DNA of 64,000 nucleotides, taken from NCBI RefSeq assembly GCF_005280295.1, contig NZ_CP040020.1:3100001-3164000 (forward strand), read 5' to 3'. The position numbers were made by a program, and so were the translations under genes. Position 1 is the first letter of the stretch; each line of letters starts with the position of its first letter. Of the stretch, positions 35,675 through 57,824 are shown in pieces. The stretch comes from Brevibacterium sp. CS2. GTDB lineage: Bacteria > Actinomycetota > Actinomycetes > Actinomycetales > Brevibacteriaceae. The notes beneath the pieces are model-generated. The model saw only the letters and a program-made list of their open reading frames with translations, did no database searches and was not told the origin of the DNA.

Positions 35675-37801
35675 ATGACGACAGCGCAGCGGCGCATCCG
35701 CATCGGCATCGACACCGGCGGAACCTTCACCGACATCGTCGCCTTCGACGAGGACTCGGGAACTCTGACGACGACGAAGACCCCGTCGACCCCGGCGAAC
35801 CCCGCCGACGGGTTCATCACCGGGATCGACAAGGTGCTCGCGGAGCTCTCGGCCACCGGCGCGGACATCGCCGCGGTGAGCCACGGCACGACGGTGGCGA
35901 CGAACCAGCTCCTCGAGGGCAAGCTCGACCGCCTCGGATTCATCACCACGGAGGGCTACGAGTTCATCCTCGAGATCGCCCGCCAGGCCGTCCCCGACGG
36001 CTACGGCAACTCCTACTTCTGGGTCAAGCCCGGGCGCATCGTGCCCGCCGACCTCGTCAAGACGGTCGCCGGCCGGATGGACTTCGAGGGCAACGAGGTC
36101 CGCCCCTTCGACGAGGAGGGGGCCCGCGCCGCCGCCCGGTGGTTCCGGGAGCACGACGTCAACACCCTCGGGGTCAACTTCCTCCACGCCTATGCGAACC
36201 CCGACCACGAGCAGCGCATGCGCGCGATCCTCGCCGAGGAGCACCCGGACGCCGTCGTGTCCCTGAGCTCCGAGGTGCTCCGGGAGTACCGCGAGTACGA
36301 GCGGTCGATGACGACGCTCGTCGACGCGGCCGTCAAGCCCAAGGTGTCGCGCTATGTGACGAACATCCACGAGCGCCTCGACGCCTACACCGGTGCAGAG
36401 CACGGCGACCGCGGCTCGATCCCGTTCTACATCATGAAGTCCAACGGCGGAGTGCTGTCCGCCGACGAGGTCGTCCACCAGCCCATCACCACGGTCCTCT
36501 CCGGCCCCGCCGCCGGCGCCCTGGGGGCCGGACTCATCGCCCGGGAGGCCGGCTTCGAGAAGGTCCTCACCTGCGACGGCGGCGGGACCTCGACCGATGT
36601 CACCGTCGTCCTCGACGGAGAGCCGGCGCTCACCACCGAGGGAACCGTCGGCGCCTACCCGTCGAAGATCCCGATGATCGACGTCGTCACCGTCGGCGCC
36701 GGCGGCGGCTCGATCGCGTGGACCACCCCCGAGGGCCAGCTCAAGGTCGGCCCCCAGTCGGCAGGAGCGGATCCGGGTCCGCTGTGCTACGCGAAGGGCG
36801 GCACCGAACCCACGATCACCGATGCGCACGTGTTCCTCGGGCGCATCCCGGCCCACCTCCTCGGCGGGGAGATCCCCCTCGACGTCGAGGCGGCGCGCAC
36901 CGGGATCGCCGCGCTCGCCGAGCGCCTGGGTCTGAGCCCGGAGCACGCCGCGGCCGGCATCCTCGAGATCAGCGCCTGGAACCAGGCGAACGCGCTGCGG
37001 CAGATCTCGGTCAAGCGCGGGCTCGACGTGCGCGACTTCATGCTCGCGACCTTCGGCGGCTCGGGCTCGCTGCTCGCCTGCCGGCTCGTCGACATCCTCG
37101 ACCTCGCCGGGGTGCTCGTCCCGCTCAACCCCGGCAACGTCTCCGCCTTCGGACTCCTCACCGTCGACGTCCGCAACGACTACGTGCAGACCAACGTCGC
37201 GAAGGACATCGGTCTCGATCTCGAGGCGATCACCTCGATCTTCGACGCGCTCACCGCGCAGGCCGCGTCCGCACTCACGGACGAGGGCTTCGCGGCCGCC
37301 GACCACGAGTTCCAGCGCTCGGTCGACCTCCGCTACTTCGGTCAGGCCTTCGAGGTCCGGGTGCCCGCCCCGGCCGGTCCGGTGACCCGGGAATGGGCCG
37401 ACTCCGTCACCGCCGCCTTCCATGCCGAGCACCGCAGCCTCTACGGCTACGACTTCGCCGGCGACGCCGAGCAGCAGGTCGAGTGGGTCAACCTCCGGGT
37501 GTCGGGCATCGGCCCCATCACCCGTCCGGAGATCCCGCAGATCGCCGCCGCAGCCGGCGCCCCCGACATCGACGAGCGCGCCCGCACCTCCGTCCGCGAG
37601 GTGTGCTTCGACGCCGACGCCGGGTTCGTCGAGGCCGGTGTCTACTGGCGGCCCGAGCTGCTCTCCGGCGACCGGATCACCGGTCCGGCGATCATCGAGG
37701 AGTTCGGCTCCACCGTCCCCGTCCATCCCGGATTCCGCGCCGACGTCGATTCCGCCGGCAACCTCGTCATCACCCGCACCACCACGGAGGCAGCGCAGTG
37801 A
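35675..37801 (+). CDS. hyuA: Hydantoinase/oxoprolinase subunit A (HyuA family)
   Basis: 708-residue ATP-dependent subunit. The N-terminus IRIGIDTGGTFTDIVAFDED is the family ATP-binding motif. CDGGGTSTDVTVV, VGAGGGSIAWTTPEG and PGPLCYAKGGTEPTITDAHVFLG are other diagnostic segments of HyuA/5-oxoprolinase A. With HyuB the family hydrolyses cyclic or linear amides (hydantoins, 5-oxoproline, caprolactam) using ATP. GGAAGGA precedes the ATG. It is first in a run of six same-strand genes reaching xdhC. The substrate here may be an intermediate of the pyrimidine-type route rather than hydantoin. Confidence 0.88.
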   Translation: MTTAQRRIRIGIDTGGTFTDIVAFDEDSGTLTTTKTPSTPANPADGFITGIDKVLAELSATGADIAAVSHGTTVATNQLLEGKLDRLGFITTEGYEFILEIARQAVPDGYGNSYFWVKPGRIVPADLVKTVAGRMDFEGNEVRPFDEEGARAAARWFREHDVNTLGVNFLHAYANPDHEQRMRAILAEEHPDAVVSLSSEVLREYREYERSMTTLVDAAVKPKVSRYVTNIHERLDAYTGAEHGDRGSIPFYIMKSNGGVLSADEVVHQPITTVLSGPAAGALGAGLIAREAGFEKVLTCDGGGTSTDVTVVLDGEPALTTEGTVGAYPSKIPMIDVVTVGAGGGSIAWTTPEGQLKVGPQSAGADPGPLCYAKGGTEPTITDAHVFLGRIPAHLLGGEIPLDVEAARTGIAALAERLGLSPEHAAAGILEISAWNQANALRQISVKRGLDVRDFMLATFGGSGSLLACRLVDILDLAGVLVPLNPGNVSAFGLLTVDVRNDYVQTNVAKDIGLDLEAITSIFDALTAQAASALTDEGFAAADHEFQRSVDLRYFGQAFEVRVPAPAGPVTREWADSVTAAFHAEHRSLYGYDFAGDAEQQVEWVNLRVSGIGPITRPEIPQIAAAAGAPDIDERARTSVREVCFDADAGFVEAGVYWRPELLSGDRITGPAIIEEFGSTVPVHPGFRADVDSAGNLVITRTTTEAAQ

Positions 37802-39846
37802 CCACCACCGACTCCACACCCACCCGGCAGACGCCCCCTCAGGACTCCGGTTCGATGCTCGGCCTCGCGCCGCTCACCGGACAGGAGCTCGCGGACTACA
37901 TCGCCGCCTCCCCGATCAACCCGGCCGGGCTCCCGACCGCGTACTCCCACGGAGGCCGGCTCACCCCGGACGGCACCGCCGTCGACCCCATCATCGTCGA
38001 GATCGTCGAGGGGACGCTGGCGAGCGTGGAGATGGAGGTCGAGACGGCGATCGCCCGCACCTCGCGCTCGCCGATGATCCGCGACGCCCACGACTTCCGG
38101 GCCGGCATCCACGACCGGCAGCTCCGCAAGCTCACCGGACGCTCGTACTCCGCACTCGTCCACCCGGTCGTCCGCGACTTCCCCATCGAGGAGATGCGCG
38201 AGGGGGACGTGTTCTTCCACAACGACGTCTACGCCTCCGAAGGCGGGATCGGACACCTGCCGGACATGTGCGTCACCGTCCCGGTGTTCGCCGACGGCGA
38301 GGTCGTGTGCTTCGTCCAGGCCTTCGGCCACCACGACGACATCGGCGGGGCCTGCCCGGGCTCCATGCCCTCGGGAGCGACGAGCGTCTTCGAGGAGGGC
38401 CTCATGATCCCGCCGATCAAGCTGTGGGACGCCGGTGTGCCGAACCGAGCCGCGCTGCGCATCATGACCCGGAACTCCCGCATGCCCGACTCGCTCGCCG
38501 CCGACCTCGACGCCGAGTGCTCGGGCTGCCTCATGGGAGCCCGGCGGCTCGCCGAGCTCTTCACCCGCTACGGGGTCGAGACCGTCGAGGGCGCCTTAGA
38601 CACGATCCTCGACAACACCACCGACATCTACCGCCGTGAGATCCTCGCGAAGATCCCCGACGGGCAGTACGTGTGGGAGGACTACGCCGAGCACGACGGG
38701 GTCGCCGAGCCGCAGCTCCACACGCAGCGGATCACGCTGACGAAGACCTCGACCGGCGGCCCGGGCCCGGGCGACGGCGGACCGCGCCTCATCATCGACT
38801 TCACCGGCACCGCCGCCCAGGCGGCCGGGCCGATCAACCACTGCGGGGACTACGTCGGCGGCAACTTCCTCAAGAAGTGGCTCGCCCCGATCCTCCGCAA
38901 CCTCGCCGACGGGCCCGAGCGGATGGCCGAGCTCGACGTCAACGAGGGCATCGTCCCGCTCATCGAGATGCGCTTCCCGGAGAAGGGCACCCTGCTCACC
39001 CCGATCTTCCCCGGCCCGACGAACGCCCGCACCTTCGTCATCCTGCGTCTGCTCGGAGTGCTCGCCGGGGTCGTCGCGAAGGCGGTCGACGGACAGATGC
39101 CGGCCGACCAGGAGACGATCCGCTACACCGGCGTCTACGGCAAGGACACCGACGGCAACGACTACCTCATGCGCGAGGTGCTCGGCGGCGGCTCGGGCGG
39201 GCGCTACTACGCCGACGGCGAGGACACGATCCACGTCGTCCCCGACTCCCGCAACCTCCCCACGGAGTTCACCGAGTCCCGGTTCCCCTTCCGGGTCGAG
39301 CGGCTCGGGCTCGCCGTCGACTCCGGTGGGGCCGGCCGCTACCGCGGCGGGCTCGGCTACGAGAAGCACATCAGGATGCTGCGCGAAGGCCACTTCATGT
39401 CGATCGCCGACCGCTCGATCCTCGCCTGCTGGGGCGTGCGCGGCGGGAAGGCGGGACGTCCGTTCCAGGTCACGATCGATCCGGGCGGTCCGAACGAGCG
39501 CGAGATCGACGCGCTCGCCGATGCCGAGCCGATCGCCGCCGGCGAGGTGGTGCGCATCCGCACCACCGGCGGCGGCGGCTGGGGCGATCCCCTCGACCGG
39601 CCCGCCGAGGAGGTCCTCCGCGACGTCTCCTGGGGCAAGGTCAGCATCGAGGGCGCCCGCGCGGACTACGGGATCGTCGTCACCGGATCCGGCGACGAGC
39701 TCGCGGTGGACTCCGCGGCCTCCGACGCCGAGCGGGAGCGGCTGCGCTCCGCGCGCGACGGGGACGAGCCGTTCTTCGATCGCGGACCGGGATACGCCCG
39801 GCTCGCCGGGGACGGCACCCGGGCCGCGCAGGTGGACTGGCTGTGA
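37798..39846 (+). CDS. hyuB: Hydantoinase subunit B (HyuB family)
   Basis: 682-residue subunit, starting at GTG 37798 that overlaps the hyuA stop (GTGA). Family motifs are DPIIVEIVEGTLASVEMEVE, the metal-site region FFHNDVYASEGGIGHLPDM and QAFGHHDDIGG, and the C-terminal TTGGGGWGDPLDRPAEEVL. It forms the active complex with HyuA. The first 45 residues are Thr/Pro-rich and slightly longer than usual. Its stop overlaps the carbamate kinase start. Confidence 0.88.
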   Translation: MTTTDSTPTRQTPPQDSGSMLGLAPLTGQELADYIAASPINPAGLPTAYSHGGRLTPDGTAVDPIIVEIVEGTLASVEMEVETAIARTSRSPMIRDAHDFRAGIHDRQLRKLTGRSYSALVHPVVRDFPIEEMREGDVFFHNDVYASEGGIGHLPDMCVTVPVFADGEVVCFVQAFGHHDDIGGACPGSMPSGATSVFEEGLMIPPIKLWDAGVPNRAALRIMTRNSRMPDSLAADLDAECSGCLMGARRLAELFTRYGVETVEGALDTILDNTTDIYRREILAKIPDGQYVWEDYAEHDGVAEPQLHTQRITLTKTSTGGPGPGDGGPRLIIDFTGTAAQAAGPINHCGDYVGGNFLKKWLAPILRNLADGPERMAELDVNEGIVPLIEMRFPEKGTLLTPIFPGPTNARTFVILRLLGVLAGVVAKAVDGQMPADQETIRYTGVYGKDTDGNDYLMREVLGGGSGGRYYADGEDTIHVVPDSRNLPTEFTESRFPFRVERLGLAVDSGGAGRYRGGLGYEKHIRMLREGHFMSIADRSILACWGVRGGKAGRPFQVTIDPGGPNEREIDALADAEPIAAGEVVRIRTTGGGGWGDPLDRPAEEVLRDVSWGKVSIEGARADYGIVVTGSGDELAVDSAASDAERERLRSARDGDEPFFDRGPGYARLAGDGTRAAQVDWL

Positions 39847-40784
39847 GGATCCTCGTCGCCCTCGGCGGCAACGCGATGACCGCACCGGACGGCTCGGCCG
39901 CACCGGACGATCAGCGCCGAGCGATCGCCGGGGCGGCCGTCCATCTGGCCGACCTCGTCGCCGCCGGCCACGAGGTCATCGTCACCCACGGCAACGGCCC
40001 CCAGGTGGGCAACATCCTGCGGAAGAACGAGATCGCGGCCGGCGAGCTGCCTCCCGTCTCGCTCGACTGGTGCGGGGCGCAGACCCAGGGCACCCTCGGC
40101 TTCACGATCGTCGACCGGATCGAGAAGGAGCTCGGCGACAGGGGCCTCGCCCGGCCGGTCGTCGCGCTCGTCACGCGCACGGCGGTCGACCCCGACGACC
40201 CCGCCTTCACCCACCCGGTCAAGCCTATCGGGGCCTACCACCCGCGCGCGCACGCCGCTCGGATGGAGCGCCACGGGCAGGTCTGGCGCGATTTCGGGGA
40301 GAAGGGCTGGCGCCGGGTGGTCGCGAGCCCCGACCCCGTCGAGGTGCTCGAGACCCGGACGATCGTCCACCTCGTCGACGCCGGCTGGATCGTCGTCGCC
40401 GCCGGCGGCGGCGGCATCCCCGTGGTCCCCGACGGGCACGGCCACAACGGGGTCTCCGCGGTGATCGACAAGGACCTCACGGCCGCTCGGCTGGCGGCGA
40501 GCGTCGGTGCCGACTGCCTCCTCATCGCCACCGACGTGCCCCATGCGGTATCCGGGTACGGCACCCCGGAGGCATGCGACATCGGCGCGGTGTCCGTCGC
40601 CGAGCTGCGCGAGATGCACCGGTCCGGCGAGTTCGGCTCCGGGTCCATGGGTCCGAAGATCGAAGCGGTCCTGCGCTTCGTCGAGGGCGGCGGGCGGCGC
40701 GGCGTGATCACCGCGCTATCCTCCCTCGGGGCCGCGGCCGAGGGCGCTGTGGGCACCGTCGTCACCTCTGCCGGTCCCGCGTAG
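39843..40784 (+). CDS. arcC: Carbamate kinase
   Basis: 313-residue amino-acid-kinase-fold enzyme that interconverts carbamoyl phosphate plus ADP with carbamate plus ATP. Motifs are LVALGGNAM, VTHGNGPQVGNI, AAGGGGIPVV, VIDKDLTAARLA and GSMGPKIEAVLRFVE. GTG 39843 overlaps the hyuB stop. There is no arcA or argF beside it, so it is not an arginine-deiminase operon. In allantoin gene clusters the equivalent kinase (AllK) consumes carbamoyl phosphate from AllFGH. The AllF-AllG fusion 4 kb away makes that role likely here. Confidence 0.93.
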   Translation: MRILVALGGNAMTAPDGSAAPDDQRRAIAGAAVHLADLVAAGHEVIVTHGNGPQVGNILRKNEIAAGELPPVSLDWCGAQTQGTLGFTIVDRIEKELGDRGLARPVVALVTRTAVDPDDPAFTHPVKPIGAYHPRAHAARMERHGQVWRDFGEKGWRRVVASPDPVEVLETRTIVHLVDAGWIVVAAGGGGIPVVPDGHGHNGVSAVIDKDLTAARLAASVGADCLLIATDVPHAVSGYGTPEACDIGAVSVAELREMHRSGEFGSGSMGPKIEAVLRFVEGGGRRGVITALSSLGAAAEGAVGTVVTSAGPA

Positions 40785-40861: not shown

Positions 40862-42427
40862 GTGGACGTGCAGGTCACCGGCGTGCTCCTGGCCGCAGGG
40901 GCCGGCACCCGCCTGGGCGGGCCCAAGGCCCTCCTGCGCACCTCCGACGGCGCACCGCTGCTCGCCCTCCAGGTCGACCGGCTCCGCGCGGCCGGATGCG
41001 ACCGGGTGATCGTCGTGCTCGGATGCGCCGCCGACCGGGCGCGCCACCTCGTTCCGCCCGGTGCCGAGGCGGTGGTCGCCGACGACTGGCGCTCCGGCAT
41101 GGGCGCCTCCCTGCGGGCCGGGCTCGATGCCGCGGACGCTCCGGGGCTCACCGCGGTGCTCGTCTCCCTCGTCGATCTCGCCGAGCTCCCGACCGAGGTG
41201 TGCGCCCGCCTCCTCGAGCACGCCCGTCCCGACGTCCTCGCCCGTGTGCAGTGGGACGGGGCGCCCGGTCACCCCGTGCTCATCGGCGCCGCGCACGTTC
41301 CGGCGGCACGCGCCGCGGCCACCGGGGACACGGGCGCCCGGGACCTCCTGGAGCACGCGGCCGCGAGCGGGGCGCTCACCCTCGTCGACGGCGGTGATCC
41401 GCATCGCGGAGCCGACGTCGACACCCCGGAGGACTGCGCGGCGGCCGGGCTCCGGCTCCCGCCTGATCCGCCGGGCACCCCGGCCGCCCTCGCCGCAGCC
41501 CTGGCGCGCACCGGCTATCTCGCCTCGGACGACCTCGCGACCGCGGCCTGGCTCGCAGGCGAGCTCGGGCGCCCGCTCCTGTGCGAGGGCGTGCCGGGCG
41601 TGGGCAAGACGAGTCTCGCGGCGGCCCTCGCCGAGGTGTACGGCGGTCCCCTGTTCCGGCTCCAGTGCCACGAGGGGATCACGGCCGCCCACGCCCTGTA
41701 CGACTGGGACTTCGCCGGTCAGATCCTCCATCTGCGCTCCCTCGAGGCCGAGGCCCGCACCACGGGCACCGTGCTCGCCTCGGATTCGGTCGAGGACGCG
41801 CTCCACTCCCGCCGGTTCCTGCTCACCCGGCCGGTCCTCCGCGCGCTCGAGGCGTCGAGCGCGGACACCCCCGCCGTGCTCCTCATCGATGAGCTCGACC
41901 GCACGGACGACGAGTTCGAGGCGGTGCTCCTCGAGGTGCTCTCCGAGTGGACGGTGTCGGTGCCCGAGCTCGGGCGCACCGAATCGACGATCGGCACATC
42001 CAGGCCCCCGATCGTCGTCCTCACCTCGAACCGCACGCGCGAGATCCACGATGCGCTGCGCCGCCGCTGCCTCTACCACTGGTTCGAGCAGCCGAGCCGG
42101 GCCCTCGAGGGGCGCATCCTGGCGGCGCGCGCACCCGAAGCGTCCGCAGATCTCCGCGCCGCCGTCGTCGCGGCCGCCGCACGGCTGCGCGAGCTGCCGC
42201 TCGTGCGGCCGCCCGGCACCGCGGAGACCCTCGACTGGCTGCGTGCCCTCGACCGGCTCGGCGTTGTCGAGCTCACCGAGCCGACGGTGCGGGCGACGCT
42301 GTCGACGGTGCTCAAGGACGCCGCGGACGTCCGCGGGTTCGACCCGGCCGCGGTGCTCGGCGACGACACAGCACTCGGCGACGGCGCAGTGCTCACAGAG
42401 GGCGCCGACCGGGAGCCCGGATCATGA
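40862..42427 (+). CDS. MocA-like nucleotidyltransferase fused to MoxR/CoxD-type AAA ATPase
   Basis: 521 residues from GTG 40862, with GGAGGAGGAG just upstream. Residues about 1-190 are an NTP-transferase domain of the MocA/MobA type (LLAAGAGTRLGGPKALL at 8-24), which would attach CMP to molybdopterin for hydroxylase enzymes. Residues about 205-480 are an AAA ATPase (Walker A GVPGVGKTS, Walker B AVLLIDELDRTD) like CoxD, which helps mature Mo hydroxylases. The fusion joins two steps normally done by separate proteins. The stop overlaps the coxE-like start (ATGA). Confidence 0.85.
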   Translation: MDVQVTGVLLAAGAGTRLGGPKALLRTSDGAPLLALQVDRLRAAGCDRVIVVLGCAADRARHLVPPGAEAVVADDWRSGMGASLRAGLDAADAPGLTAVLVSLVDLAELPTEVCARLLEHARPDVLARVQWDGAPGHPVLIGAAHVPAARAAATGDTGARDLLEHAAASGALTLVDGGDPHRGADVDTPEDCAAAGLRLPPDPPGTPAALAAALARTGYLASDDLATAAWLAGELGRPLLCEGVPGVGKTSLAAALAEVYGGPLFRLQCHEGITAAHALYDWDFAGQILHLRSLEAEARTTGTVLASDSVEDALHSRRFLLTRPVLRALEASSADTPAVLLIDELDRTDDEFEAVLLEVLSEWTVSVPELGRTESTIGTSRPPIVVLTSNRTREIHDALRRRCLYHWFEQPSRALEGRILAARAPEASADLRAAVVAAAARLRELPLVRPPGTAETLDWLRALDRLGVVELTEPTVRATLSTVLKDAADVRGFDPAAVLGDDTALGDGAVLTEGADREPGS

Positions 42428-43548
42428 CGCCGCGCACACCGGCCGCCGGGACGACGCAGGACCTCAGCGGGGTGCTGCTCGGTCTGGGCGGCGCCCTGCG
42501 GCGGGCCGGGCTCCCCGTGACCCCGCCGGAGATGCACCTGCTCGTCGCGGCCGCGGCGCGGCTCGACCCGCTCGACCCCCGGCAGGTGCGCGCGGCCTCA
42601 CGGGCCATCTGCTGCCGGGAGGAATCGCAGATCGCCGTCCACGATGCGGTGTTCGCCCGCTATTTCGGGCTGCGTCCGTCGCGCGTCGAGCCCCCTGCCC
42701 CCGTCCCGGTGCGGACCCCGGACAGCTCCGGTGCCGGCGAGGCCCCGGGCACGGAGACCGGGGTGCCCGAGGCCGCCGCGAGCCGCACGGAGCTGCTGCG
42801 CCGCACCGACCTCGGCGACGGCGCCGACCGGGAGGCGGCGGCCCGACTCATCGACGGCCTCACGGTGCAGCGGCCCGTGCGCATCGGTGCGCGCACCCGC
42901 CGCGCGGTGCACGGGCCGGTCGATCTCGAGCGCACGCTGCGCGCTCTGGCGCGCGCCGACGACCTCCCCCGGCTGCCGCGTCGACGCCCGCTCCCCCGGC
43001 CGCGCCGGGTCGTCCTCGTCCTCGACGTCTCGGCCTCGATGCGCCCCTGGCTCGACGCGATCATCCGCTTCGCCCGACGCTGGCGGATCGAGGCGGATGC
43101 CCGGGTGTTCACCGTCGGCACCCGGCTCACGCATGTCACCGCTGAGCTCGGCGAGGCGGATGCCGGGGCCGCCCTGGACCGGATGCTCGACCACGTGCCC
43201 GATGCCGTCGGCGGGACACGGCTGGGGGATTCGCTGGGGACCCTGCTCGATTCGAATGCCCTCGCGGTGCGCGGCAGCGTCTGCGTGCTCGTGTCCGACG
43301 GCTGGGAGACGGGGTCGATGGACTCGCTGGACCACGCCTGCGAGCGGCTCGACCGGCTGTCGCGACGCTTCCTCTGGGTGAACCCACGGGCCGGCCGCCC
43401 GGGCTGGGAGCCGGCCACCCGCGCGATGGGGATCGCCGCCGCCCACGCCGAGCGGACCCTGCCGGGAACGACCGTCGCCGATTGGGAGCAGGTCGCCGCG
43501 ACCATCGGACGGGCTCCCTCCCCGGGACGGGAGCCTGCCCGTGCGTGA
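42424..43548 (+). CDS. CoxE-like VWA-domain protein
   Basis: 374 residues: a helical N-terminal region (about 1-170) and a von Willebrand factor A domain with the MIDAS motif LDVSASM (D201). CoxE/MoxR-VWA pairs act in maturation of molybdenum hydroxylases, working with the CoxD-type AAA ATPase, which is fused to MocA in the preceding gene. The start overlaps that gene by four bases. A metal-dependent chaperone adaptor role is inferred from the family. Confidence 0.85.
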   Translation: MTPRTPAAGTTQDLSGVLLGLGGALRRAGLPVTPPEMHLLVAAAARLDPLDPRQVRAASRAICCREESQIAVHDAVFARYFGLRPSRVEPPAPVPVRTPDSSGAGEAPGTETGVPEAAASRTELLRRTDLGDGADREAAARLIDGLTVQRPVRIGARTRRAVHGPVDLERTLRALARADDLPRLPRRRPLPRPRRVVLVLDVSASMRPWLDAIIRFARRWRIEADARVFTVGTRLTHVTAELGEADAGAALDRMLDHVPDAVGGTRLGDSLGTLLDSNALAVRGSVCVLVSDGWETGSMDSLDHACERLDRLSRRFLWVNPRAGRPGWEPATRAMGIAAAHAERTLPGTTVADWEQVAATIGRAPSPGREPARA

Positions 43549-48660: not shown

Positions 48661-48723
48661 ACCAGCCGGTGCGATCCGGCAGAACATGCTACGGCTCATG
48701 CCGCATCCCGAGAGGAGCCCGCG

Positions 48724-50361
48724 ATCACCGAGCTCGACCCCGCCGCTCTCCCGCTCTCCGAGGTCCTCACCCTCCCCTCCTTGCTCGGCTCCCGGCTCGT
48801 CGCCGGCGGCAACCGGCTCGACCGGACGGTGCGGCGGGTGAACATCATGGAGGTCCCGGACATCCTCCCCTGGGTGCGCCCGCACGAGCTCCTGCTCACC
48901 ACCGGGTACCCGCTCCGCGACGACCCCGGGCGGCTGACGGAGCTCGTCTCCGAGTTCTCCGCGCACGGACTCTCCGGCCTCGGCATCAAGATGAGCCGGT
49001 ACCTCGAGGAGATCCCGGAGGAGGCGATCGCACTCGCCGACGACCTCGGCCTGCCGATCATCGCGCTGCCCGCGGACACCGGGTTCGACGACATCATCAA
49101 CGAGGTCCTCGCCGAGGTGCTCGGCCGCAGCGCCGACTCCCTCCATCGCAGCGAACGGGTGATGCGCGAGCTCGTCGATGCCGTCGTCACCGGAGGCGAC
49201 CTCGACGACGTGTGCGCGCGCCTCGCCCACGAGATCGGGATCCACGTCGTCGTCACCACGATGGACGGCCGGGTCCGCGCCGAGGTCCCCGATCCCCGCG
49301 CGGTCGCGGACCCCCCGCGGCCGCGCGAGCTGCCGTGCTTCGATCCGACGGGCCGCTTCCGCGTGGAGAGCGAGCCCACGGGCGTCGACCTCGCGCAGGA
49401 CGGGATGCACCGGATGAGCACCAGGATCCTCGGCGGGTCCCGCGATCTCGGTCGGCTCGTCGTGTTCTCCGAGCGGGGGCTGGGCCCGGCCCACCTGGGA
49501 GTCCTCGAGCAGGCGGCCGCGGCCGCCGCCCTCGTCATCACCAAGCAGCAGGCGATCTCCGCGGTGGAGAGCAAGTACCGGACCGATTTCGTCCACGAGG
49601 TCATGCGCGGCCGCATCACCTCGACGGACCGGATCCTGTCCCATGCGGAGTCGCTCGGCTGGGACCTCGACCGGCCGCTGTCCGTCGTCGTGGCCGAGGT
49701 CGACGCCGATGCCGACGCCTCCGAGGGAGACGAGAAGCGCACGCTCCAGGAGCTGTTCGCCACCGCGTGGACCGCCGCGGTGAAGCGGCTCGACGAGAAG
49801 GCCGCCGTGGTGGGGGCCGGCGACGAGGTCATCGTGCTGCTGCCCGCGGCCGACACCGAACGCCAGACCGCGGCGGTGGAGGAGTGCATTCGGGAGGTCC
49901 GGGGCATGGGCGGCGGCGGCAGACGGGCCTTCTCCACCGGGATCTCCCGCCCGGCGGCGACCGTCCACGATCTGCCGACCGCCTACGTCGAGGCCACCCG
50001 GGCGGTCGAGATCGGCCGCCGGATCCACGGCGGCAGCGCACTGAGCCACTTCGACACCCTCGGGGTCCACCGGCTCCTCCTCCAGGTGGCCGACACCGAG
50101 GAGCTGCGCGCCTTCGCCGAAGACACCCTCGGCCCGCTGGCCGGGGACGCGAAGACCGAGTACGCCGACCTGCGGGAGACCCTGCAGGTGCTCCTCGACC
50201 ACAATCTCAACGTCGCCGAGACCGCCCGCGCGCTGTTCTTCCACTACAACTCGCTGCGCTACCGGATCACGAAGCTCGAGCGGATGCTCGGGCCCTTCAC
50301 CACGGACCCGCACCTGCGCCTCGCGATCACCCTGGCTCTGCAGATCGTCCGGCTCCCGTGA
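48724..50361 (+). CDS. pucR: PucR-family transcriptional regulator, probable ATC start
   Basis: 545 residues: an N-terminal PucR ligand domain (about 8-130; LPLSEVLTLPSLLGSRLVAG), a middle GAF/GGDEF-like region (about 150-430) and a C-terminal PucR helix-turn-helix (NVAETARALFFHYNSLRYRITKL split around residue 505). The family regulates purine or related nitrogen catabolism. No ATG, GTG or TTG lies in frame near the domain start. ATC at 48724 follows AGAGGAG at ideal spacing and gives ITELDPAALPL. The ATG at 48619 would add a Cys/His-rich extension through the promoter region. It is the likely controller of the surrounding cluster. Confidence 0.8.
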   Translation: MTELDPAALPLSEVLTLPSLLGSRLVAGGNRLDRTVRRVNIMEVPDILPWVRPHELLLTTGYPLRDDPGRLTELVSEFSAHGLSGLGIKMSRYLEEIPEEAIALADDLGLPIIALPADTGFDDIINEVLAEVLGRSADSLHRSERVMRELVDAVVTGGDLDDVCARLAHEIGIHVVVTTMDGRVRAEVPDPRAVADPPRPRELPCFDPTGRFRVESEPTGVDLAQDGMHRMSTRILGGSRDLGRLVVFSERGLGPAHLGVLEQAAAAAALVITKQQAISAVESKYRTDFVHEVMRGRITSTDRILSHAESLGWDLDRPLSVVVAEVDADADASEGDEKRTLQELFATAWTAAVKRLDEKAAVVGAGDEVIVLLPAADTERQTAAVEECIREVRGMGGGGRRAFSTGISRPAATVHDLPTAYVEATRAVEIGRRIHGGSALSHFDTLGVHRLLLQVADTEELRAFAEDTLGPLAGDAKTEYADLRETLQVLLDHNLNVAETARALFFHYNSLRYRITKLERMLGPFTTDPHLRLAITLALQIVRLP

Positions 50362-50538: not shown

Positions 50539-52032
50539 ATGTCGGCATTCGGATGGAAACTCCACGGCGACGGCAAGGACGTCCTGCCCGGTCGCGCCGT
50601 CGCCCCGGACGAGCGCTTGAGCTGGGGGCGCACCGTGGGGCTCGGCGCCCAGCACGTCGTCGCGATGTTCGGCGCGACCTTCGTCTTCCCCATCGTCATG
50701 GGTCTCAACCCGCAGCTCGCCGTCATGGTCAGCGGGTTCTCGACGATCATCTTCCTCCTCATCGTCAACGGGAAGGTGCCGAGCTACCTCGGCACCTCTG
50801 CCGCGTTCGTCGGAGGCGTCGCCGCCGTCACCGCCCAGGGCGGCACCATCCAGGAGGTGTCGGGATCGATCCTCGTCGCCGGACTCGTCCTCGCGGTCGC
50901 CGGCGTCTTCATCCACTTCATCGGCGCACGCATCCTCACCCGGATCCTCCCGCCCGTGGTCACCGGCGCCGTCGTCATGCTCATCGGGTTCAACCTCGCC
51001 CCGGTCGTGGCGAACGTCTACTGGCCGCAGGACCAGTGGGTCGCCCTCATCGTCATGGTCGCCGTCATCCTCATGTCGGTGGGCCTGCGCGGGTTCCTCG
51101 GCCGCGTCTCCGTGTTCATCGGACTCGTCTTCGGCTACGTGCTCTCCTGGGTCTTCGACCTCGTGTTCGGCCAGATCACGTCCTACGACTCCGCGGTCGA
51201 CGACATCACCACCCGCTTCCGCGTCGACTGGTCCGGCGTCGAGGCCGCCGCATGGATCGGCTTCCCGCCCTTCACCGACGAGGCCGCCGGCGTCGTCGGC
51301 ATCCACCTGCCCGCCTTCAACGCCGGGTTCATCGTCCTCATGCTCCCCGCGGTCATCGCGCTCGTCGCGGAGAACGTCGGCCACGTCAAGGCCGTCGAGG
51401 AGATGACGCGCGTCGATCTCGACCCCTATGTGGGACGCGCGGTGTTCGCCGACGGCGTCGCCACCGCGATGGCCTCGAGCGTCGGCGGCTCGCCGACCAC
51501 CACCTACGCGGAGAACATCGGCGTCATGGCAGCCACCCGCGTGTATTCGACCGCGGCCTACTACGTCGCCGCGCTCGTCGCGATCGGGTTCGGCCTCTCC
51601 CCCAAGTTCGGCGCGGTCATCGCAGCGGTCCCCGGCGGCGTCCTCGCCGGCATCACGGTCGTGCTCTACGGCATGATCGGCATGCTCGGCGCGAAGATCT
51701 GGAAGGAGAACCGGGTCGACTTCGCCAATCCGCTCAACCTCGCCCCGGTCGCGGCGGGCATCATCATCGCGATCGGCGACGTCGGTCTGACGGTGACCGA
51801 GAACTTCACCCTCTCCGGCATCGCGTTCGGTACCATCGTCACCCTGGTCATGTACCACCTCGCCCGACTCGTCGCCCCCCGCTCGATGCGCGATGCCGCG
51901 GCCGCAGAGGCCGTCGAGCCCGGCGGCACGGCGATCACCATCGGGTCCACCGGATCGGAGGGCCGGATCGGCGAGGAGCTCACCGAGGACTACGGTGCCC
52001 GTCGGGCACGCGAGAAGAGGACCGATACGTGA
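50539..52032 (+). CDS. NCS2-family nucleobase permease (uracil/xanthine type)
   Basis: 497-residue nucleobase:cation symporter-2 protein with about 14 membrane segments. The QHVVAMFGATFVFPIVMG N-terminal region and SVGGSPTTTYAENIGVMAATRVYS are characteristic of the UraA/uracil branch. It probably imports the pyrimidine that the adjacent Mo enzyme oxidises. The ATG at 50539 was chosen (GAGGAGCAGTC upstream). It overlaps the FAD-subunit gene by four bases (GTGA), directly coupling import and oxidation. Confidence 0.88.
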   Translation: MSAFGWKLHGDGKDVLPGRAVAPDERLSWGRTVGLGAQHVVAMFGATFVFPIVMGLNPQLAVMVSGFSTIIFLLIVNGKVPSYLGTSAAFVGGVAAVTAQGGTIQEVSGSILVAGLVLAVAGVFIHFIGARILTRILPPVVTGAVVMLIGFNLAPVVANVYWPQDQWVALIVMVAVILMSVGLRGFLGRVSVFIGLVFGYVLSWVFDLVFGQITSYDSAVDDITTRFRVDWSGVEAAAWIGFPPFTDEAAGVVGIHLPAFNAGFIVLMLPAVIALVAENVGHVKAVEEMTRVDLDPYVGRAVFADGVATAMASSVGGSPTTTYAENIGVMAATRVYSTAAYYVAALVAIGFGLSPKFGAVIAAVPGGVLAGITVVLYGMIGMLGAKIWKENRVDFANPLNLAPVAAGIIIAIGDVGLTVTENFTLSGIAFGTIVTLVMYHLARLVAPRSMRDAAAAEAVEPGGTAITIGSTGSEGRIGEELTEDYGARRAREKRTDT

Positions 52033-52934
52033 AGCCCGCCCCCTTCACTCTGCACCGTCCGCGCACCCTCGCGGCCGCGCTCGAGCTGCTGGCCGAGCTC
52101 GGCCCCGACGCCAAGGTGCTCGCCGGCGGACAGAGCCTCGTACCGGTGCTCAACATGCGCCTGGCGGCACCCGCCCACCTCGTCGACATCACCGCGCTGC
52201 CCGACGTCGACCGCGTCGAGTCGAGCGGGGCCGGCGTGACGGTCGGCGCGCTCGCCACCCATCGCGCCGTGGAGCACGATGCCGGCGCGCACGAGCACCA
52301 GCCGCTCCTCCGCCAGGCCCTCACCCACGTCGCCCACCCGGCGATCCGCAATCGCGGCACCGTCGTCGGATCGCTCGCCCACGCCGACCCCAACGGCGAG
52401 ATGCCGATGATCCTCGCGCTGACCGAGGGGCACGTGCGCGCCGTGAGCAGCCGCGGCGAGCGCGAGATCCCGGCCGCAGAGCTGTTCGTCGGCCCGCTCG
52501 AGACCTGCCTGGAGCCCGACGAGATCCTCGTCTCGGCGACCTTCGGCGCAGCCGGGGCCGGGGCGCGCACGGGCTTCGACGAGCTGGCACGCCGATCCGG
52601 CGACTACGCGCTCGCCGGGGTCGGGATGGTGCTCGCGACCGACGGGGACGGCGCCGCGGAGACGATCACCGGGCTCAGCGCCGGATTCGTCTCCGTGACC
52701 GACCTCCCCGAGCGGCTCGTGCTCGACGAGCACGTGGCGGGCACCCCCACCGCCGAGGCCCGGGAGGTCGCCGAGGCGGTCGCCGCCGCCGTGCGCGAGC
52801 ACATCGACCCGATCGACGACATCCACGCCACCGCCGACTACCGCCGGCACCTCGCCGGCGTCATCGCCCGCCGCACGTTCACCCGGCTGGCCCGCACGAA
52901 CGACCGGCCCCGGACCCAGGAGGCGCACGCATGA
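52029..52934 (+). CDS. Molybdenum hydroxylase FAD-binding subunit (CoxM/XdhB type)
   Basis: 301-residue FAD subunit. The FAD-binding motifs AGGQSLVPVLNMRLA and IRNRGTVVGSLAHADPNGE are clear, and FDELARRSGDYALAGVG marks the C-terminal CODH-type domain. It passes electrons from the iron-sulfur subunit to the acceptor. The GTG overlaps the permease stop, and the stop overlaps the 2Fe-2S gene (ATGA). It is the medium subunit of the three-part enzyme encoded at 52029-55818. Confidence 0.92.
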   Translation: MKPAPFTLHRPRTLAAALELLAELGPDAKVLAGGQSLVPVLNMRLAAPAHLVDITALPDVDRVESSGAGVTVGALATHRAVEHDAGAHEHQPLLRQALTHVAHPAIRNRGTVVGSLAHADPNGEMPMILALTEGHVRAVSSRGEREIPAAELFVGPLETCLEPDEILVSATFGAAGAGARTGFDELARRSGDYALAGVGMVLATDGDGAAETITGLSAGFVSVTDLPERLVLDEHVAGTPTAEAREVAEAVAAAVREHIDPIDDIHATADYRRHLAGVIARRTFTRLARTNDRPRTQEAHA

Positions 52935-53431
52935 GCAGCGAACCGACGAGCACCGTGAGACTGAGCGTCAACGGCGTGGACCGCACGGTCGACGTCCCCG
53001 ACCGGCAGCTCCTCTCCGACGCCCTCCGCCACACCCTCGGGCTCACCGGCACGCACGTGGGCTGCGAGCACGGCGTGTGCGGAGCGTGCACCGTCCAGCT
53101 CGACGGTCGGCCGGTGCGCTCGTGCCTGATGTTCGCCGCCTCGGCGGAGGGCCATGAGATCACCACCGTCGAAGGGCTGGGCAACGGCCCGGACGACCCC
53201 GGGCCGGTGCAGCAGGCCTTCATCGACTGCCACGGCCTCCAGTGCGGCTTCTGCACCCCGGGCTTCGTCACGACCATCGATGCCTACGTCCGCGAGAACC
53301 CCGATCCGAGCGAGGAGGAGGCACGCGAGGCGATCTCCGGCAACCTGTGCCGGTGCACCGGGTACCAGAACATCGTGCGCTCGGTGTGCCGGGCCGCCGA
53401 GCTCGTGCCCGAGCGGGAGGAGGACGCATGA
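52931..53431 (+). CDS. Molybdenum hydroxylase 2Fe-2S subunit (CoxS/XdhC-small type)
   Basis: 166 residues with two 2Fe-2S clusters: a plant-ferredoxin type N-terminal cluster (GCEHGVCGACTVQLDG, plus the later RSC) and a C-terminal helical cluster (QCGFCTPGF and CRCTGYQNI). The length and order are typical of small subunits of the xanthine dehydrogenase family. It overlaps both neighbours by four bases. Confidence 0.95.
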   Translation: MSSEPTSTVRLSVNGVDRTVDVPDRQLLSDALRHTLGLTGTHVGCEHGVCGACTVQLDGRPVRSCLMFAASAEGHEITTVEGLGNGPDDPGPVQQAFIDCHGLQCGFCTPGFVTTIDAYVRENPDPSEEEAREAISGNLCRCTGYQNIVRSVCRAAELVPEREEDA

Positions 53432-55818
53432 CGACGCGGATGTTCGGACAGTCGATCACCCGACGGGAGGACCCCCGCCTCGTCACCGGCGCCGGAGCCT
53501 ACCTCGACGACCTCGCCCCCGGGGTCCTCGCCGCTGCGTTCGTCCGCAGCCCGCACGCCCATGCCCGGATCCGCGACATCGACGTCGCCGGCACCCTCGA
53601 CGTCCCCGGGGTCGTCGCGGTGTGGACGCACGAGGACCTGCCCGGCGCGGCGGCGGAGCGCCTGCCCATGCTCCTGCCGCACCCCTCGATCAGCTCTCCC
53701 CACACCGGGTTCGCGCTCGCGCGCGATCACGTCAACCACGTGGGCGAGCCCGTGGCGATGGTCGTCGCCGAGAACCGGTACATCGCCGAGGACGCGTGCG
53801 GGCGCATCGAGGTCGACTACGAGCTCCTCCCGCCGGTCGTCGGGCTCCCCGCCGCACGGGAGGCCGCCCGGGCCGTCCACGACGAGACCCCGGACAACGT
53901 CGCCGCCCACCACGTGCAGACCGTCGGCGACGCCGCCGCGGCGATCGACTCCGCCCCGCACGTGCTCGATCTCGAGCTCGAGATCGAGCGCAGCGCGTGC
54001 ATCCCGATGGAGGGCAAGGGCGTCATCGCGCGGTGGAACTCCGAGGACCGGACGATGGTCGTCCACTCCTCCACCCAGACGAGCACCGGCCTGCGGGCGG
54101 CTCTGGCCGCCAAGCTCGGCTTGGCGCTCACCGACATCGAGGTCATCACCCCGGACGTCGGCGGCGCCTTCGGGGTGAAGATCAACCACCCCTGGCCGGA
54201 GGAGGTCGCGGTGGCCTGCGCCGCCCGGGCGCTGTCGACGACGGTGAAATGGACCGAGGACCGGCGCGAGCACTTCATCTCCTCCGCCCACGAGCGCGGG
54301 CAGCTCCAGCGGGTGCGGGTCGGATTCGACGACTCCGGTCGCATCCGCGGGCTCGATGTGCAGTTCTGGCACGACAACGGCGCCTATCTCCCCTACGGCG
54401 TCATCTGCCCGCTCAACACCTCGACCCACGTCCTCGGGCCCTACCTGGTGCCGGACTACCGGGTGGAGTTCTGGTCGATGTACACGAACACCGTCATCGT
54501 CACCCCGTACCGGGGTGCCGGCCGCCCGCAGGGCGTGTACATCATGGAACGCACCATGGATGCGATCGCCGAACGCCTCGGGATGGACCGCACCGAGGTG
54601 CGGATGAACAACTTCGTCCGCGAGTTCCCGCATCCGCTCGGCGTCATCATGCAGGACGGCGCCGAGGGCGTGCTCGACTCCGGCGACTACGTCGCCTCGA
54701 TGGACAAGCTGCGCGCGCTCGTCGGCTGGGAGGACTTCGTCGAGTTCCGTGAGCAGGCACGGGCCGAGGGCCGCAGGGTCGGGATCGGCGTGGCCTGCTA
54801 CGTCGAATCCACCGGTGCCGGCCCGTACGAGGGCGGTCACATCGAGGTCGAGACCTCCGGCCGGGTCAACGTCTTCACGGGGCTCACGACGCAGGGCCAG
54901 GCCCACGCCACGGTGTTCGCCCAGATCGTCGCCGACGAGCTCGGCGTGCCCATCGACCAGGTGCATGTGACGACCGGGGACACGCGGAAGATGGCGTACT
55001 CGGTGGGCACCTGGGGCTCCCGCGGAGCGGTGATGAGCGGCAACGCCGTGCATCTCGCGGCGCGGAAGGTCAAGGAGAAGGCGCTCGCGATCGCCGGCGA
55101 CAACCTCGAGGTGGACCCCGGCGACCTCGAGATCGTCGACGGGACCGTCCGCGTCAAGGGCGACCCGAGCGCCTCCATGCCGCTGTCGGCCGTGTCCGTG
55201 CTGTCGAACCCGCTGCGCTACGCCTTCGACGAATCGGCGAAGGCCGCGACCCAGTTCGCTCGGCCGCCCGCTCCCGGGGCCCCGCCGGTCACCCCGGGCC
55301 GTGCCCCGGGTCTCGAGGACCAGGACTTCTTCTCCCCGGTGCGCTCGACCTTCGCCTCCGGGATGCACGCGGCGATCGTCGAGACCGACCCGGACACCGC
55401 CGACATCCGGATCCTGCGCTACTGCGTCGTCCACGACTGCGGGCCGATGATCAACCCGCTCGTCGTCGAGGGCCAGGTGCACGGCGGAGTCGCGCAGGGA
55501 GTCGGCGGCGCCCTGTACGAGCGGATGGCCTACGACGACATGGGGCAGCTCCTCAATGCCTCCTTCATGGACTTCCTCATGCCCTTCGCCTCCGAGGTGC
55601 CCCACATCGAGACCGACCACCTGGAGACCCCGAGCCCGCTGAACCCGCTCGGCATCAAGGGCGCCGGCGAGGCGGGCACGATCCCGGGCACCGCGGTGAT
55701 CGCCGCGGCGATCGAGGACGCCGAGGGCATCCCGATCCGCCGGATGCCGATCTCACCCTCCGAGCTCTGGCAGCTGCGGCGCGAGACCGCCGACGCACCC
55801 GCGCCCGCCGCCCGCTGA
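53428..55818 (+). CDS. Molybdenum hydroxylase large catalytic subunit, candidate pyrimidine dehydrogenase
   Basis: 796-residue Mo-pterin subunit of the xanthine dehydrogenase family. The catalytic Glu is E748 in GAGEAG. The active-site loop reads PYRGAGRP (Y361 to R366), not the Cys-containing AYRCSFR of true CO dehydrogenase, so it is not a CO oxidiser. DVGGAFGVK and GGVAQGVGGALYE are cofactor-contact segments. Beside a barbiturase-family gene and uracil-type permeases, oxidation of uracil or thymine to the barbiturate is the most economical role; xanthine or another N-heterocycle is possible. Confidence 0.88.
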   Translation: MTTRMFGQSITRREDPRLVTGAGAYLDDLAPGVLAAAFVRSPHAHARIRDIDVAGTLDVPGVVAVWTHEDLPGAAAERLPMLLPHPSISSPHTGFALARDHVNHVGEPVAMVVAENRYIAEDACGRIEVDYELLPPVVGLPAAREAARAVHDETPDNVAAHHVQTVGDAAAAIDSAPHVLDLELEIERSACIPMEGKGVIARWNSEDRTMVVHSSTQTSTGLRAALAAKLGLALTDIEVITPDVGGAFGVKINHPWPEEVAVACAARALSTTVKWTEDRREHFISSAHERGQLQRVRVGFDDSGRIRGLDVQFWHDNGAYLPYGVICPLNTSTHVLGPYLVPDYRVEFWSMYTNTVIVTPYRGAGRPQGVYIMERTMDAIAERLGMDRTEVRMNNFVREFPHPLGVIMQDGAEGVLDSGDYVASMDKLRALVGWEDFVEFREQARAEGRRVGIGVACYVESTGAGPYEGGHIEVETSGRVNVFTGLTTQGQAHATVFAQIVADELGVPIDQVHVTTGDTRKMAYSVGTWGSRGAVMSGNAVHLAARKVKEKALAIAGDNLEVDPGDLEIVDGTVRVKGDPSASMPLSAVSVLSNPLRYAFDESAKAATQFARPPAPGAPPVTPGRAPGLEDQDFFSPVRSTFASGMHAAIVETDPDTADIRILRYCVVHDCGPMINPLVVEGQVHGGVAQGVGGALYERMAYDDMGQLLNASFMDFLMPFASEVPHIETDHLETPSPLNPLGIKGAGEAGTIPGTAVIAAAIEDAEGIPIRRMPISPSELWQLRRETADAPAPAAR

Positions 55819-55867: not shown

Positions 55868-56530
55868 GTGCAGATCTCATCGACGGCCCATATGCAGGCG
55901 GATTCCGCGACCGCCTGGCAGGCGTTCCACGACACCGGGGTCCTGTCCCGCACGATCCCGGGCGTCGAGTCGCTGACCCCCACCGCCCCGGGCACCTATG
56001 CGGTGGTCCTCACCATGGGGGTCGCGGCGATCAAGGGGACGTACAAGGGCACGGTGGCGTTCTCCCAGGAGGTCGAGAACGAGTCCTTCGTCCTCACCGC
56101 CACCGGCAGCGGAGGACCGGGCACGATCGGCGCGGACATCACCGTGCACCTGGCTCCGGGAGCCGAATCCGGGACCGACATCGCGTGGGAGGCCTCCGCA
56201 GTGCTCGGCGGCCCGATCGGCGGCGTCGGACAGCGCATGCTCTCCGGGGTCGCCAAGCGCATCGCCACGAAGTTCTTCGCCGACATCGATGCCGACATCG
56301 CAGCCGGCGGCGCCGCCCAGGAGGCCTCCCCCGCCGGGACCGCGCCCGGGGACGCGCTCGCCGACGCCGCACCGGCGCCGGCGACGGTCCCGGCGGAGCG
56401 TCGCAGCCCACCGGCGGCCGCCTCGGGTCCGGCTCCGCGGGGCGGCGGTGATCTCCTCACCGGTCTGCTCGCCGGGGCCGGGATCGCGCTGGCCGGGGTG
56501 ATCGTCGGCGTCCTCGCCGGGCGCCGCTGA
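55868..56530 (+). CDS. CoxG/SRPBCC-family protein with C-terminal membrane anchor
   Basis: 220 residues: a CoxG-type SRPBCC domain (about 1-145), an Ala/Pro-rich linker and one C-terminal transmembrane helix (about 195-217; LLAGAGIALAGVIVGVLAG). In carboxydotrophs CoxG anchors the Mo hydroxylase to the membrane so it can feed electrons to quinone. The same role is likely here, so substrate oxidation may be coupled to respiration. GTG 55868 has GGAGGAC upstream. It is the last gene of the permease-hydroxylase transcript. Confidence 0.85.
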   Translation: MQISSTAHMQADSATAWQAFHDTGVLSRTIPGVESLTPTAPGTYAVVLTMGVAAIKGTYKGTVAFSQEVENESFVLTATGSGGPGTIGADITVHLAPGAESGTDIAWEASAVLGGPIGGVGQRMLSGVAKRIATKFFADIDADIAAGGAAQEASPAGTAPGDALADAAPAPATVPAERRSPPAAASGPAPRGGGDLLTGLLAGAGIALAGVIVGVLAGRR

Positions 56531-56690: not shown

Positions 56691-57824
56691 ATGCCCGATC
56701 CGATCGAAGTCCGCAAGGTCCCTCTCCACAGCGTCACCGACGCCTCCGAGCTCACCGCACTCATCGACGCCGGCACCCTGTCCGCCGACCGCGTGATCGC
56801 CATCATCGGCAAGACCGAGGGCAACGGCGGGGTCAACGACTACACCCGGATCATCGCCGACCGCGCCTTCCGTGAAGCACTCGTCGCCGCCGGGGCGCCC
56901 GCCGATCAGGTGAGCCGGATCCCGATCGTGTGGTCCGGCGGCACGGACGGGGTGATCAGCCCGCACGCGACGATCTTCGCCACCGTCGACCCGTCCGAGG
57001 TGGAGCCGACGGAGGAGAAGCGCCTGTCGGTGGGATTCGCGCTGAGCGAGCCGATCCTGCCCGAGGAGATCGGCCGGATGGGCATGGTCGACAAGGTCGC
57101 CGTCGCCGTGCAGGAGGCGAAGGAGCGGGCCGGGATCACCGACGACGCGGACGTCCACTACGTGCAGACGAAGACCCCGCTGCTCACCATCGACACGATC
57201 CGCGACGCCCGCTCCCGCGGCAACGACGTCGTCACCGAGGACACCCTGGCGTCGATGGACGTCTCGAACGGCACCACCGGGCTCGGGATCGCGAAGGCGC
57301 TCGGCGAGGTCGCCGAGATCCGCGACGAGGACATCATGGCCGACCGGTCGAAGTACTCCGCCGTGGCCTCGTGCTCCTCCGGGGTCGAGCTCGACCGGGC
57401 GCAGGTCGTCGTCGTCGGGAATGCGAGCGGGATCGGCGGCCGGTACCGGATCGGCCATTCCGTCATGCGCCACGCCCTCGACGCCGACGGGATCTGGGAG
57501 GCGATCGCCGACGCCGGCCTCGACCTGCCCGAGCGCCCGCACCGCGACGATCTCGCCGGTCGGCTCGTCAATGTCTTCCTCAAGTGCGAGACGAGCCAGG
57601 ATGGCTCCGTGCTCGGCCGGCGCAACGCCATGCTCGACGATTCCGACGTGCACTGGCACCGGCAGATCAAGGCGGCCGTCGGCGGGGTCACCGCCCAGGT
57701 GACCGGCGATCCCGCCGTCTTCGTCTCCGTCTCCGCCGCCCACCAGGGGCCGGACGGCGGCGGCCCGGTGGCCGCGATCGTCGACCTCGGCGAGGATCCG
57801 ACCGGATACACCTTCAGCGGCTGA
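56691..57824 (+). CDS. Ring-opening amidohydrolase of the barbiturase/cyanuric acid hydrolase family
   Basis: 377 residues with the three-fold repeat of this rare family. The three expected Lys-Ser pairs are visible: K41/S82 (IIGKTEG, WSGGTDG), K161/S229-S230 (QTKTPLL, SCSSGVE) and K298/S346 ([21 protein letters not shown]). Members hydrolyse barbiturate to 3-oxo-3-ureidopropanoate, or cyanurate to carboxybiuret. The presence of uracil-type permeases and a Mo hydroxylase, with no biuret or allophanate hydrolase, favours barbiturase. GAAGGAGC precedes the ATG; it has its own promoter. Confidence 0.88.

Follow-up and report, generated by a model that had tools for sequence, protein, structure and literature searches.

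A Brevibacterium locus that may link barbiturate ring opening to carbamoyl phosphate and ATP

What becomes of the product of barbiturate ring opening when the gene for the ring opener shares a locus with a carbamoyltransferase of the oxalurate-degrading type and a carbamate kinase? This question is raised by a locus of Brevibacterium sp. CS2 that runs from position 35675 (where HyuA begins) to position 57824 (where the barbiturase gene ends) of a 64,000-nucleotide stretch, hereafter the window, which corresponds to bases 3100001-3164000 of a genome that forms a single contig of 3239740 bases and has a G+C content of 72%. The first-pass annotation of this DNA had placed a molybdenum (Mo) dehydrogenase-type enzyme, a ring opener, AllFGH, a carbamate kinase and permeases in that span, all of which we recover at the same coordinates, and had proposed that barbiturate ring opening feeds AllFGH and the kinase. 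We read the locus as a cluster for the oxidative catabolism of pyrimidines (cytosine/uracil, perhaps thymine), with a core route to carbamoyl phosphate and ATP, and we put the probability of this reading at about 0.7.

The oxidative pathway of pyrimidine breakdown consists of uracil/thymine dehydrogenase, barbiturase and ureidomalonase, Rhodococcus erythropolis being the organism of the last two steps; to our knowledge, neither its dehydrogenase nor its final step has assigned genes. In our model, NCS2 permeases would import the base, a CoxMSL-type Mo-hydroxylase would oxidise uracil at C6 to barbiturate, and barbiturase, assigned by sequence and signature, would open the ring to give 3-oxo-3-ureidopropanoate (ureidomalonate). 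An AllF-AllG fusion acting with AllH would then phosphorolyse ureidomalonate to malonamate and carbamoyl phosphate, and carbamate kinase, as is known for its family, would convert carbamoyl phosphate and ADP to ATP, ammonia and CO2. Malonamate would be deamidated to malonate by a nitrilase-family or amidase-signature enzyme such as those encoded in relatives' clusters, and a family III CoA-transferase, likewise found there, would turn malonate into malonyl-CoA. Compared with the Rhodococcus pathway, AllFGH and carbamate kinase would replace the hydrolytic ureidomalonase, and the predicted products would be malonamate and carbamoyl phosphate rather than malonate and urea. We found no description of a barbiturase-AllFGH-carbamate kinase route in the open-licence literature, subscription papers lying outside the scope of the search.

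The ring opener (56691-57824, plus strand) is named cyanuric acid amidohydrolase by NCBIfam, whose model it matches with 454 bits, over the cut-off of 360. Its best match among solved structures is 5hwe, "Barbiturase" (587 bits, 1.4e-175), as compared with 308 bits for the best cyanuric acid hydrolase. The accessible text of Peat et al. (PMC3758960) gives the Bar signature, in AtzD numbering, as Asn195, His321, Lys325, Val345 and Ser/Ala346, and all five residues are present here (N193, H323, K327, V347 and S348). Where that paper has asparagine, PMC4051656, in its accessible text, assigns a glutamine to barbiturases; the sequences that we analysed show asparagine, in agreement with PMC3758960, the signature of which we used. 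Placement of the ring opener among the barbiturases of AtzD/Bar Group VI is secure by sequence, its activity on barbiturate being predicted, and cyanuric acid as its substrate is ruled out by the Bar signature. The doubt attached to the initial proposal, that the amidohydrolase might act on cyanurate, is answered, by sequence, in favour of barbiturase. The barbiturase of the known oxidative pathway belongs to the same signature group (PMC3758960, accessible text), a member of which here stands beside a Mo-hydroxylase and a uracil-type permease. Genome G108 (L024) also encodes another member of the AtzD family, 42% identical; its signature is a mixture, N/H/K/G/G, and it has Leu at an alignment column where the other sequences compared have Ser.

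Genomic context makes a strong case for coupling of this barbiturase to AllFGH and carbamate kinase, and the linkage originally proposed is in this respect strongly supported by conservation. In a sample of 248 genomes of the order, barbiturase occurs in 20 and AllFG in 28, and every one of the 20 barbiturase genomes also has AllFG. Among 396 genomes of the phylum, an AtzD-family match was found in 27, of which 22 have 62-100% identity and the other 5 have 39-44%; AllG, present in 49 of the 396, accompanies all 22 of the former and none of the latter. The two samples overlap by 3 genomes, leaving 39 distinct barbiturase genomes, and all 39 contain AllG. The corresponding Fisher p values, 2e-23 for the order and 7e-23 for the phylum, overstate the evidence because the genomes are related. 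In 16 of the 20 order genomes the barbiturase and AllG genes are carried on one contig, at distances of 12-48 kb; the same holds for 14 of the 19 further phylum genomes, at 3-17 kb. In the remaining 4 and 5 genomes, respectively, the two are on separate contigs. A scan of a public genome collection confirmed at least 504 relatives of the barbiturase, the best 80 loci of which were analysed with 10-kb flanks; the barbiturase locus of Janibacter sp. HTCC2649 is L103. Carbamate kinase is present in 78 of these 80 loci and, in 76, lies directly upstream of barbiturase on the same strand, with the aligned ends no more than 156 bases apart; AllFGH was not met within these flanks. Finally, outside the class we read 13 clusters, all of which have the barbiturase and AllG genes on a single strand; the kinase was found in 11 and an NCS2 permease in 11. 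Embleya carries the set on 41 kb, and in Nonomuraea AllG is found 42 kb from barbiturase.

The same clusters also speak to the entry compound. In 4 of the 13 a cytosine deaminase gene is inserted between barbiturase and NCS2, the enzyme being of the CodA type in genomes G555, G547 and G623 and of the yeast type in G468. For the G555 deaminase the solved cytosine deaminase 1k6w is a match (4e-49). Cytosine-deaminase models also match this protein and that of G547, with scores under the cut-off in both cases; the G623 deaminase was recognised through its 72% match to that of G555, and the G468 deaminase matches 2o3k (4e-36). Since two unrelated deaminase types occupy one place, uracil is indicated as the entry compound. 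In G362, a dihydropyrimidinase-like gene lies in two pieces beside barbiturase, which is again a pyrimidine gene, but one of the reductive route.

Oxidation of uracil would fall to the Mo-hydroxylase, whose genes comprise CoxM, CoxS, CoxL and CoxG together with a MocA-CoxD fusion, CoxE and XdhC. The CoxM-type flavin adenine dinucleotide (FAD) subunit (52029-52934) is named from its position and from 33-65% matches in relatives' clusters, and the CoxS-type [2Fe-2S] subunit (52931-53431) matches several [2Fe-2S]-subunit models, the best at 6e-56 and all below their cut-offs. These are followed by the CoxL-type Mo subunit (53428-55818) and by a CoxG-type SRPBCC protein (55868-56530; PF06240, 4e-20), all on the plus strand. 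CoxL exceeds the cut-off of the NCBIfam model NF040766, "aerobic CO dehydrogenase" (CO, carbon monoxide), and among solved chains it is nearest to quinoline 2-oxidoreductase (1t3q, 2e-125), with CO dehydrogenases at 1e-118 and weaker. The active-site loop of CO dehydrogenase, with its cysteine, is one that we take to read CSFR; that of CoxL reads PYRGAGR, on which ground CO dehydrogenase was rejected as its identity, and the database name is likely to be wrong. We know of no reference sequence for uracil/thymine dehydrogenase, and the predicted oxidation at C6 is drawn from the context and is consistent with a nearest solved relative that hydroxylates an N-heterocycle. Import may be served by an NCS2 permease nearest to the uracil-type RutG (50539-52032, plus strand; TIGR03616, 6e-106, below cut-off), which is 65% identical to the NCS2 protein of a relative's cluster.

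The conversion of ureidomalonate to malonamate would be the work of a pair of minus-strand genes. The first encodes an AllF (FdrA)-AllG (DUF1116) fusion of 993 amino acids, of the oxamate-carbamoyltransferase type (44682-47663; FdrA model NF004760, 2e-115, below its cut-off; AllG model PF06545, 5e-87), and the second encodes AllH (DUF2877; 47675-48607, exact start uncertain; PF11392, 1e-17), so that homologues of all three subunits are present. Uninterrupted full-length matches to the fusion are also found in G006 and G213. The carbamate kinase (39843-40784, plus strand; TIGR00746, 6e-98) scores 327.7 bits against the curated cut-off of 358.25 for TIGR00746, thus falling below it, and 288.1 against 266 for NF009007, which it exceeds; as an ArcC-type kinase in an AllFGH locus, it qualifies as a catabolic carbamate kinase. 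These proteins are homologous to E. coli AllFGH and AllK, the subject of PMC11326118 (AllF 34%, AllG 45% and the kinase 39% identical), but here they accompany barbiturase instead of allantoin genes. The E. coli complex, according to the accessible text of that paper, was assayed in the reverse direction, from oxamate and carbamoyl phosphate, with a Km of 36.9 mM for oxamate.

A further difference from E. coli lies in AllG itself. We built a tree of 55 AllG sequences, dropping G149 as a very long row, with 19 of the 49 phylum AllG genomes (the lowest-scoring ones, none with barbiturase and none with a locus) left aside. A branch with support 99/94 divides the 39 sequences from barbiturase genomes, together with those of G042 and G156, from the rest, E. 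coli among them; in an earlier tree that kept G149, and with G042 and G156 counted as lacking barbiturase, the barbiturase label takes 3 changes. The 41 sequences of this group were then compared with 8 from the oxalurate side (G132 and G149 omitted) and 5 from f25/f36 genomes. E. coli AllG His385 is replaced by Gly in 41 of 41 group members and is His in 13 of 13 others, and Met54 is replaced by Ala in 39 of 41 and is Met in 13 of 13 others; in the fusion protein of the window the two positions are Gly960 and Ala630. Both replacements would make room and would suit a substrate one carbon longer. A similar test of 35 AllF sequences gave no such diagnostic column; 48 columns are invariant among them, including His393 of the window protein.

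As for the fate of malonamate, several relatives' clusters carry a nitrilase-family or amidase-signature gene after CoxG, and many carry a family III CoA-transferase; within the flanks of the best 80 loci we counted CoA-transferase in 45, amidase in 22 and nitrilase-family genes in 8. At E 1e-5 the window lacks any homologue of the amidase, nitrilase-family and CoA-transferase genes seen in relatives. Elsewhere in the genome there are a 61% identical CoA-transferase homologue and two 49% amidase homologues, plus weaker ones, which might serve these steps.

A number of points, those raised with the alternatives below included, weigh against this reading. AllFG of G006 lies deep inside a large contig and is hence truly unlinked to barbiturase. 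No kinase was found within 20 kb of barbiturase in Nonomuraea, nor near barbiturase in loci L089, L113, L212 and L214; in the window itself the kinase is coupled to HyuAB and is not adjacent to barbiturase. The Mo subunit of G544 is just 29% identical, and its best matches are xanthine dehydrogenase models. Loss of the otherwise kept His385 could mean changed chemistry and not a changed substrate alone, and ureidomalonate is not mentioned for E. coli AllFGH in the accessible text of PMC11326118. In addition, ureidomalonase might be encoded by the relatives' amidase or nitrilase-family gene. The genus also contains genomes, G042 and G156, that keep the Mo-hydroxylase, HyuAB, AllFGH and the kinase with no barbiturase match anywhere in the genome.

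This last observation leads to the alternative that survives best, namely that HyuAB is the main ring opener feeding AllFGH and barbiturase a second entry for one substrate, which overlaps with our reading at the AllFGH step. HyuA (35675-37801, plus strand; PF01968, 1e-87) is a hydantoinase/oxoprolinase-type ATPase subunit whose nearest solved chain is the N-methylhydantoinase 7hk5 (5e-142). HyuB (37798-39846, plus strand; PF02538, 8e-133) has a GTG start overlapping the HyuA stop and is 70-88% identical to its counterparts in relatives; the kinase in turn has a GTG start overlapping the HyuB stop, coupling all three genes. With its HyuA and HyuB domains the pair resembles the ATP-dependent N-methylhydantoinase/caprolactamase of the HyuAB family, but it does not reach the curated cut-off of any named subfamily. 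HyuB occurs in 25 of the 396 phylum genomes, 24 of which have AllG, and it is present in 19 of the 22 barbiturase genomes; on these counts HyuAB is part of the system, although the route that we propose has no need of it. The first-pass proposal is supported in part only: its scheme omitted HyuA and HyuB (35675-39846), and the barbiturase-free clusters of G042 and G156 do not fit it. CoxMSL-HyuAB-AllFG without barbiturase is likewise seen in G278 and G379.

Against HyuAB as the main opener stand the 3 of 22 barbiturase genomes that lack HyuB at the threshold used, and, in 76 of the best 80 loci, the position of the kinase immediately upstream of barbiturase. A PF04199 hydrolase, moreover, adjoins AllH in G278 and G259 and occupies the corresponding place in G274, and could be the opener there; this family includes cyclic-amide openers, and a replacement of barbiturase by such a hydrolase in clusters without barbiturase is possible. 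(PF04199 "putative cyclase" hydrolases were located at L221:6026-6880 and L223:5482-6276, both in clusters without barbiturase.) We regard HyuAB as an unlikely main opener, if one to be kept in mind, and its role as a simple stand-in for barbiturase does not form part of our view, given that 19 of 22 barbiturase genomes have both. HyuAB probably acts on a second cyclic ureide, opening it at the expense of ATP; 5-methylbarbiturate derived from thymine would be a guess.

Improbable, in our estimate, is the classical sequel in which a ureidomalonase, possibly encoded by the clusters' amidase-signature or nitrilase-family gene, yields malonate and urea, with AllFGH and the kinase serving another acylurea. 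Ureidomalonase giving malonate and urea is indeed placed after barbiturase in the accessible text of PMC3758960, and the amidase and nitrilase-family counts given above (22 and 8 of the best 80 loci) would provide candidates for it. These genes vary, however, belonging to two unrelated families with none of either in the window, whereas AllG accompanies barbiturase in each of the 39 genomes and the kinase adjoins it upstream in 76 of 80 loci. Moreover, 18 of the 24 barbiturase genomes tested (of the 39) have no urease match. We know of no gene assigned to ureidomalonase.

The weakest alternative, that AllFGH still acts on oxalurate from allantoin or from parabanate/hydantoin-type rings with barbiturase a mere neighbour, can draw on the family name and the E. 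coli function (PMC11326118, accessible text), on N-methylhydantoinase as the nearest solved chain of HyuA and on the 10 of 24 tested barbiturase genomes with allantoinase over cut-off, where an allantoin supply is possible, but it is very improbable in view of the one-strand barbiturase-AllFG clusters outside the class, the separate group formed by AllG of barbiturase clusters and the gene content of this genome. In this genome (ALTERNATIVES) uricase and urease gave no match, and no allantoinase match exceeds the cut-off, the best reaching 226.7 bits against 357.85 and belonging, we infer, to dihydroorotase; on this evidence allantoin was rejected as the source. What had been claimed for the window, absence of uricase and allantoinase, extends to the whole genome for uricase and, at the cut-off used, for allantoinase, and a complete allantoin pathway elsewhere in it, which would have spoken for oxalurate, did not appear. 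Seven of the 9 Amidohydro_1 places in the genome were scanned (L236 and L244 lying outside the scan), with none over the allantoinase or dihydropyrimidinase cut-off, and the part of the window genes that was scanned contains no allantoin or ureidoglycolate genes. Allantoinase over cut-off is absent from 14 of the 24 barbiturase genomes tested.

Returning to the route through ureidomalonate, plasmids provide parallels to it. Plasmid records contain 132 with an AtzD-family match and 193 with an AllG match, three of which, from conjugative plasmids, were read for pairing of AtzD with AllFGH and kinase. Serratia and Leclercia plasmids encode, in a row, a ring-opening amidohydrolase, an NCS2 symporter, DUF2877, fdrA, DUF1116, arcC and a LysR gene; Aminobacter pSR8 (L253:7250-13624) encodes fdrA, DUF1116, a ring-opening amidohydrolase, arcC and an amidohydrolase, the last being 30% identical to AtzC. 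As in the window, ring opener, AllF, AllG, AllH and kinase occur together (L251, L252 and L253), with the NCS2 symporter in L251 and L252. In contrast to it, the ring opener of each plasmid carries the cyanuric signature R/T/R/G/G, the AllG proteins of the Serratia and Aminobacter plasmids (L251 and L253) resemble that of E. coli in the diagnostic columns, and no Mo-hydroxylase is listed beside these operons. Phosphorolysis of carboxybiuret or biuret would be the corresponding reaction, and the pairings suggest a wider ureide-phosphorolysis module. Nitrifier allFGH beside triuret genes has been interpreted as oxalurate degradation (PMC12625717, accessible text). Tentatively, and at somewhat under even odds, we propose that AllFGH is a general acylurea phosphorylase with varied acylurea sources (oxalurate from ureidoglycolate oxidation, ureidomalonate from barbiturase, carboxybiuret or biuret from cyanuric acid hydrolase), with ATP salvaged via carbamate kinase, the pocket of the barbiturate branch being widened by Met54 to Ala and His385 to Gly and the cyanurate branch residing on conjugative plasmids.

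Related plasmids yielded further observations. In Pseudomonas and Paenarthrobacter plasmids (L254:4001-6485 and L255:6001-8779), the atrazine gene atzC stands behind an arcC carbamate kinase gene and an allG fragment, a hint that atzC derives from an AllFGH-kinase-deaminase operon; the longer, Paenarthrobacter fragment has His at the diagnostic column, and the Pseudomonas fragment is too short to reach it. AllG (DUF1116) matches on Escherichia plasmids account for 96 of the 193 records and, among the rows listed, often occupy two places per record (hits H26-H49 included).

The remaining genes of the locus fit around those already discussed. On the plus strand, HyuA, HyuB and carbamate kinase are followed, up to 44674, by the maturation genes of the Mo-enzyme: a MocA-type cytidylyltransferase fused in a single frame to a MoxR/CoxD-type AAA ATPase (40862-42427; PF12804, 4e-30, plus AAA domains), the VWA-domain protein CoxE (42424-43548; PF05762, 2e-35) and an XdhC family factor (43541-44674; PF13478, 9e-41; PF02625, 4e-28). 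Beyond the minus-strand AllF-AllG and AllH genes, the plus strand resumes with PucR, NCS2 permease, CoxM, CoxS, CoxL, CoxG and barbiturase. The PucR-family regulator (48619-50361, start uncertain; PF07905, 6e-37; PF13556, 4e-18), divergent from allH-allFG, is likely to regulate the locus; a promoter scan of the divergent allH/pucR region showed no promoter-like site. Facing barbiturase from the minus strand is a second NCS2 permease, of the PbuX type (57898-59394; TIGR03173, 422 bits, over the cut-off of 414). A PbuX-type permease, an 84% homologue of this one, adjoins barbiturase away from the main cluster in G006 (L068:9385-12198), and another lies near barbiturase in Ornithinimicrobium sp. 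CNJ-824 (L089); barbiturase and this permease may move together as a pair. An open reading frame at 59580-60929 combines an alpha/beta-hydrolase-like part with an OsmC-like part.

Taken together, we suggest that the database names "cyanuric acid amidohydrolase" and "aerobic CO dehydrogenase" mislead for these proteins. If our model is correct, it would propose genes for the oxidative uracil pathway and would replace its urea-releasing end by one that yields ATP, and AllFGH would be widened from an enzyme of one substrate to a family of ureide phosphorolases.

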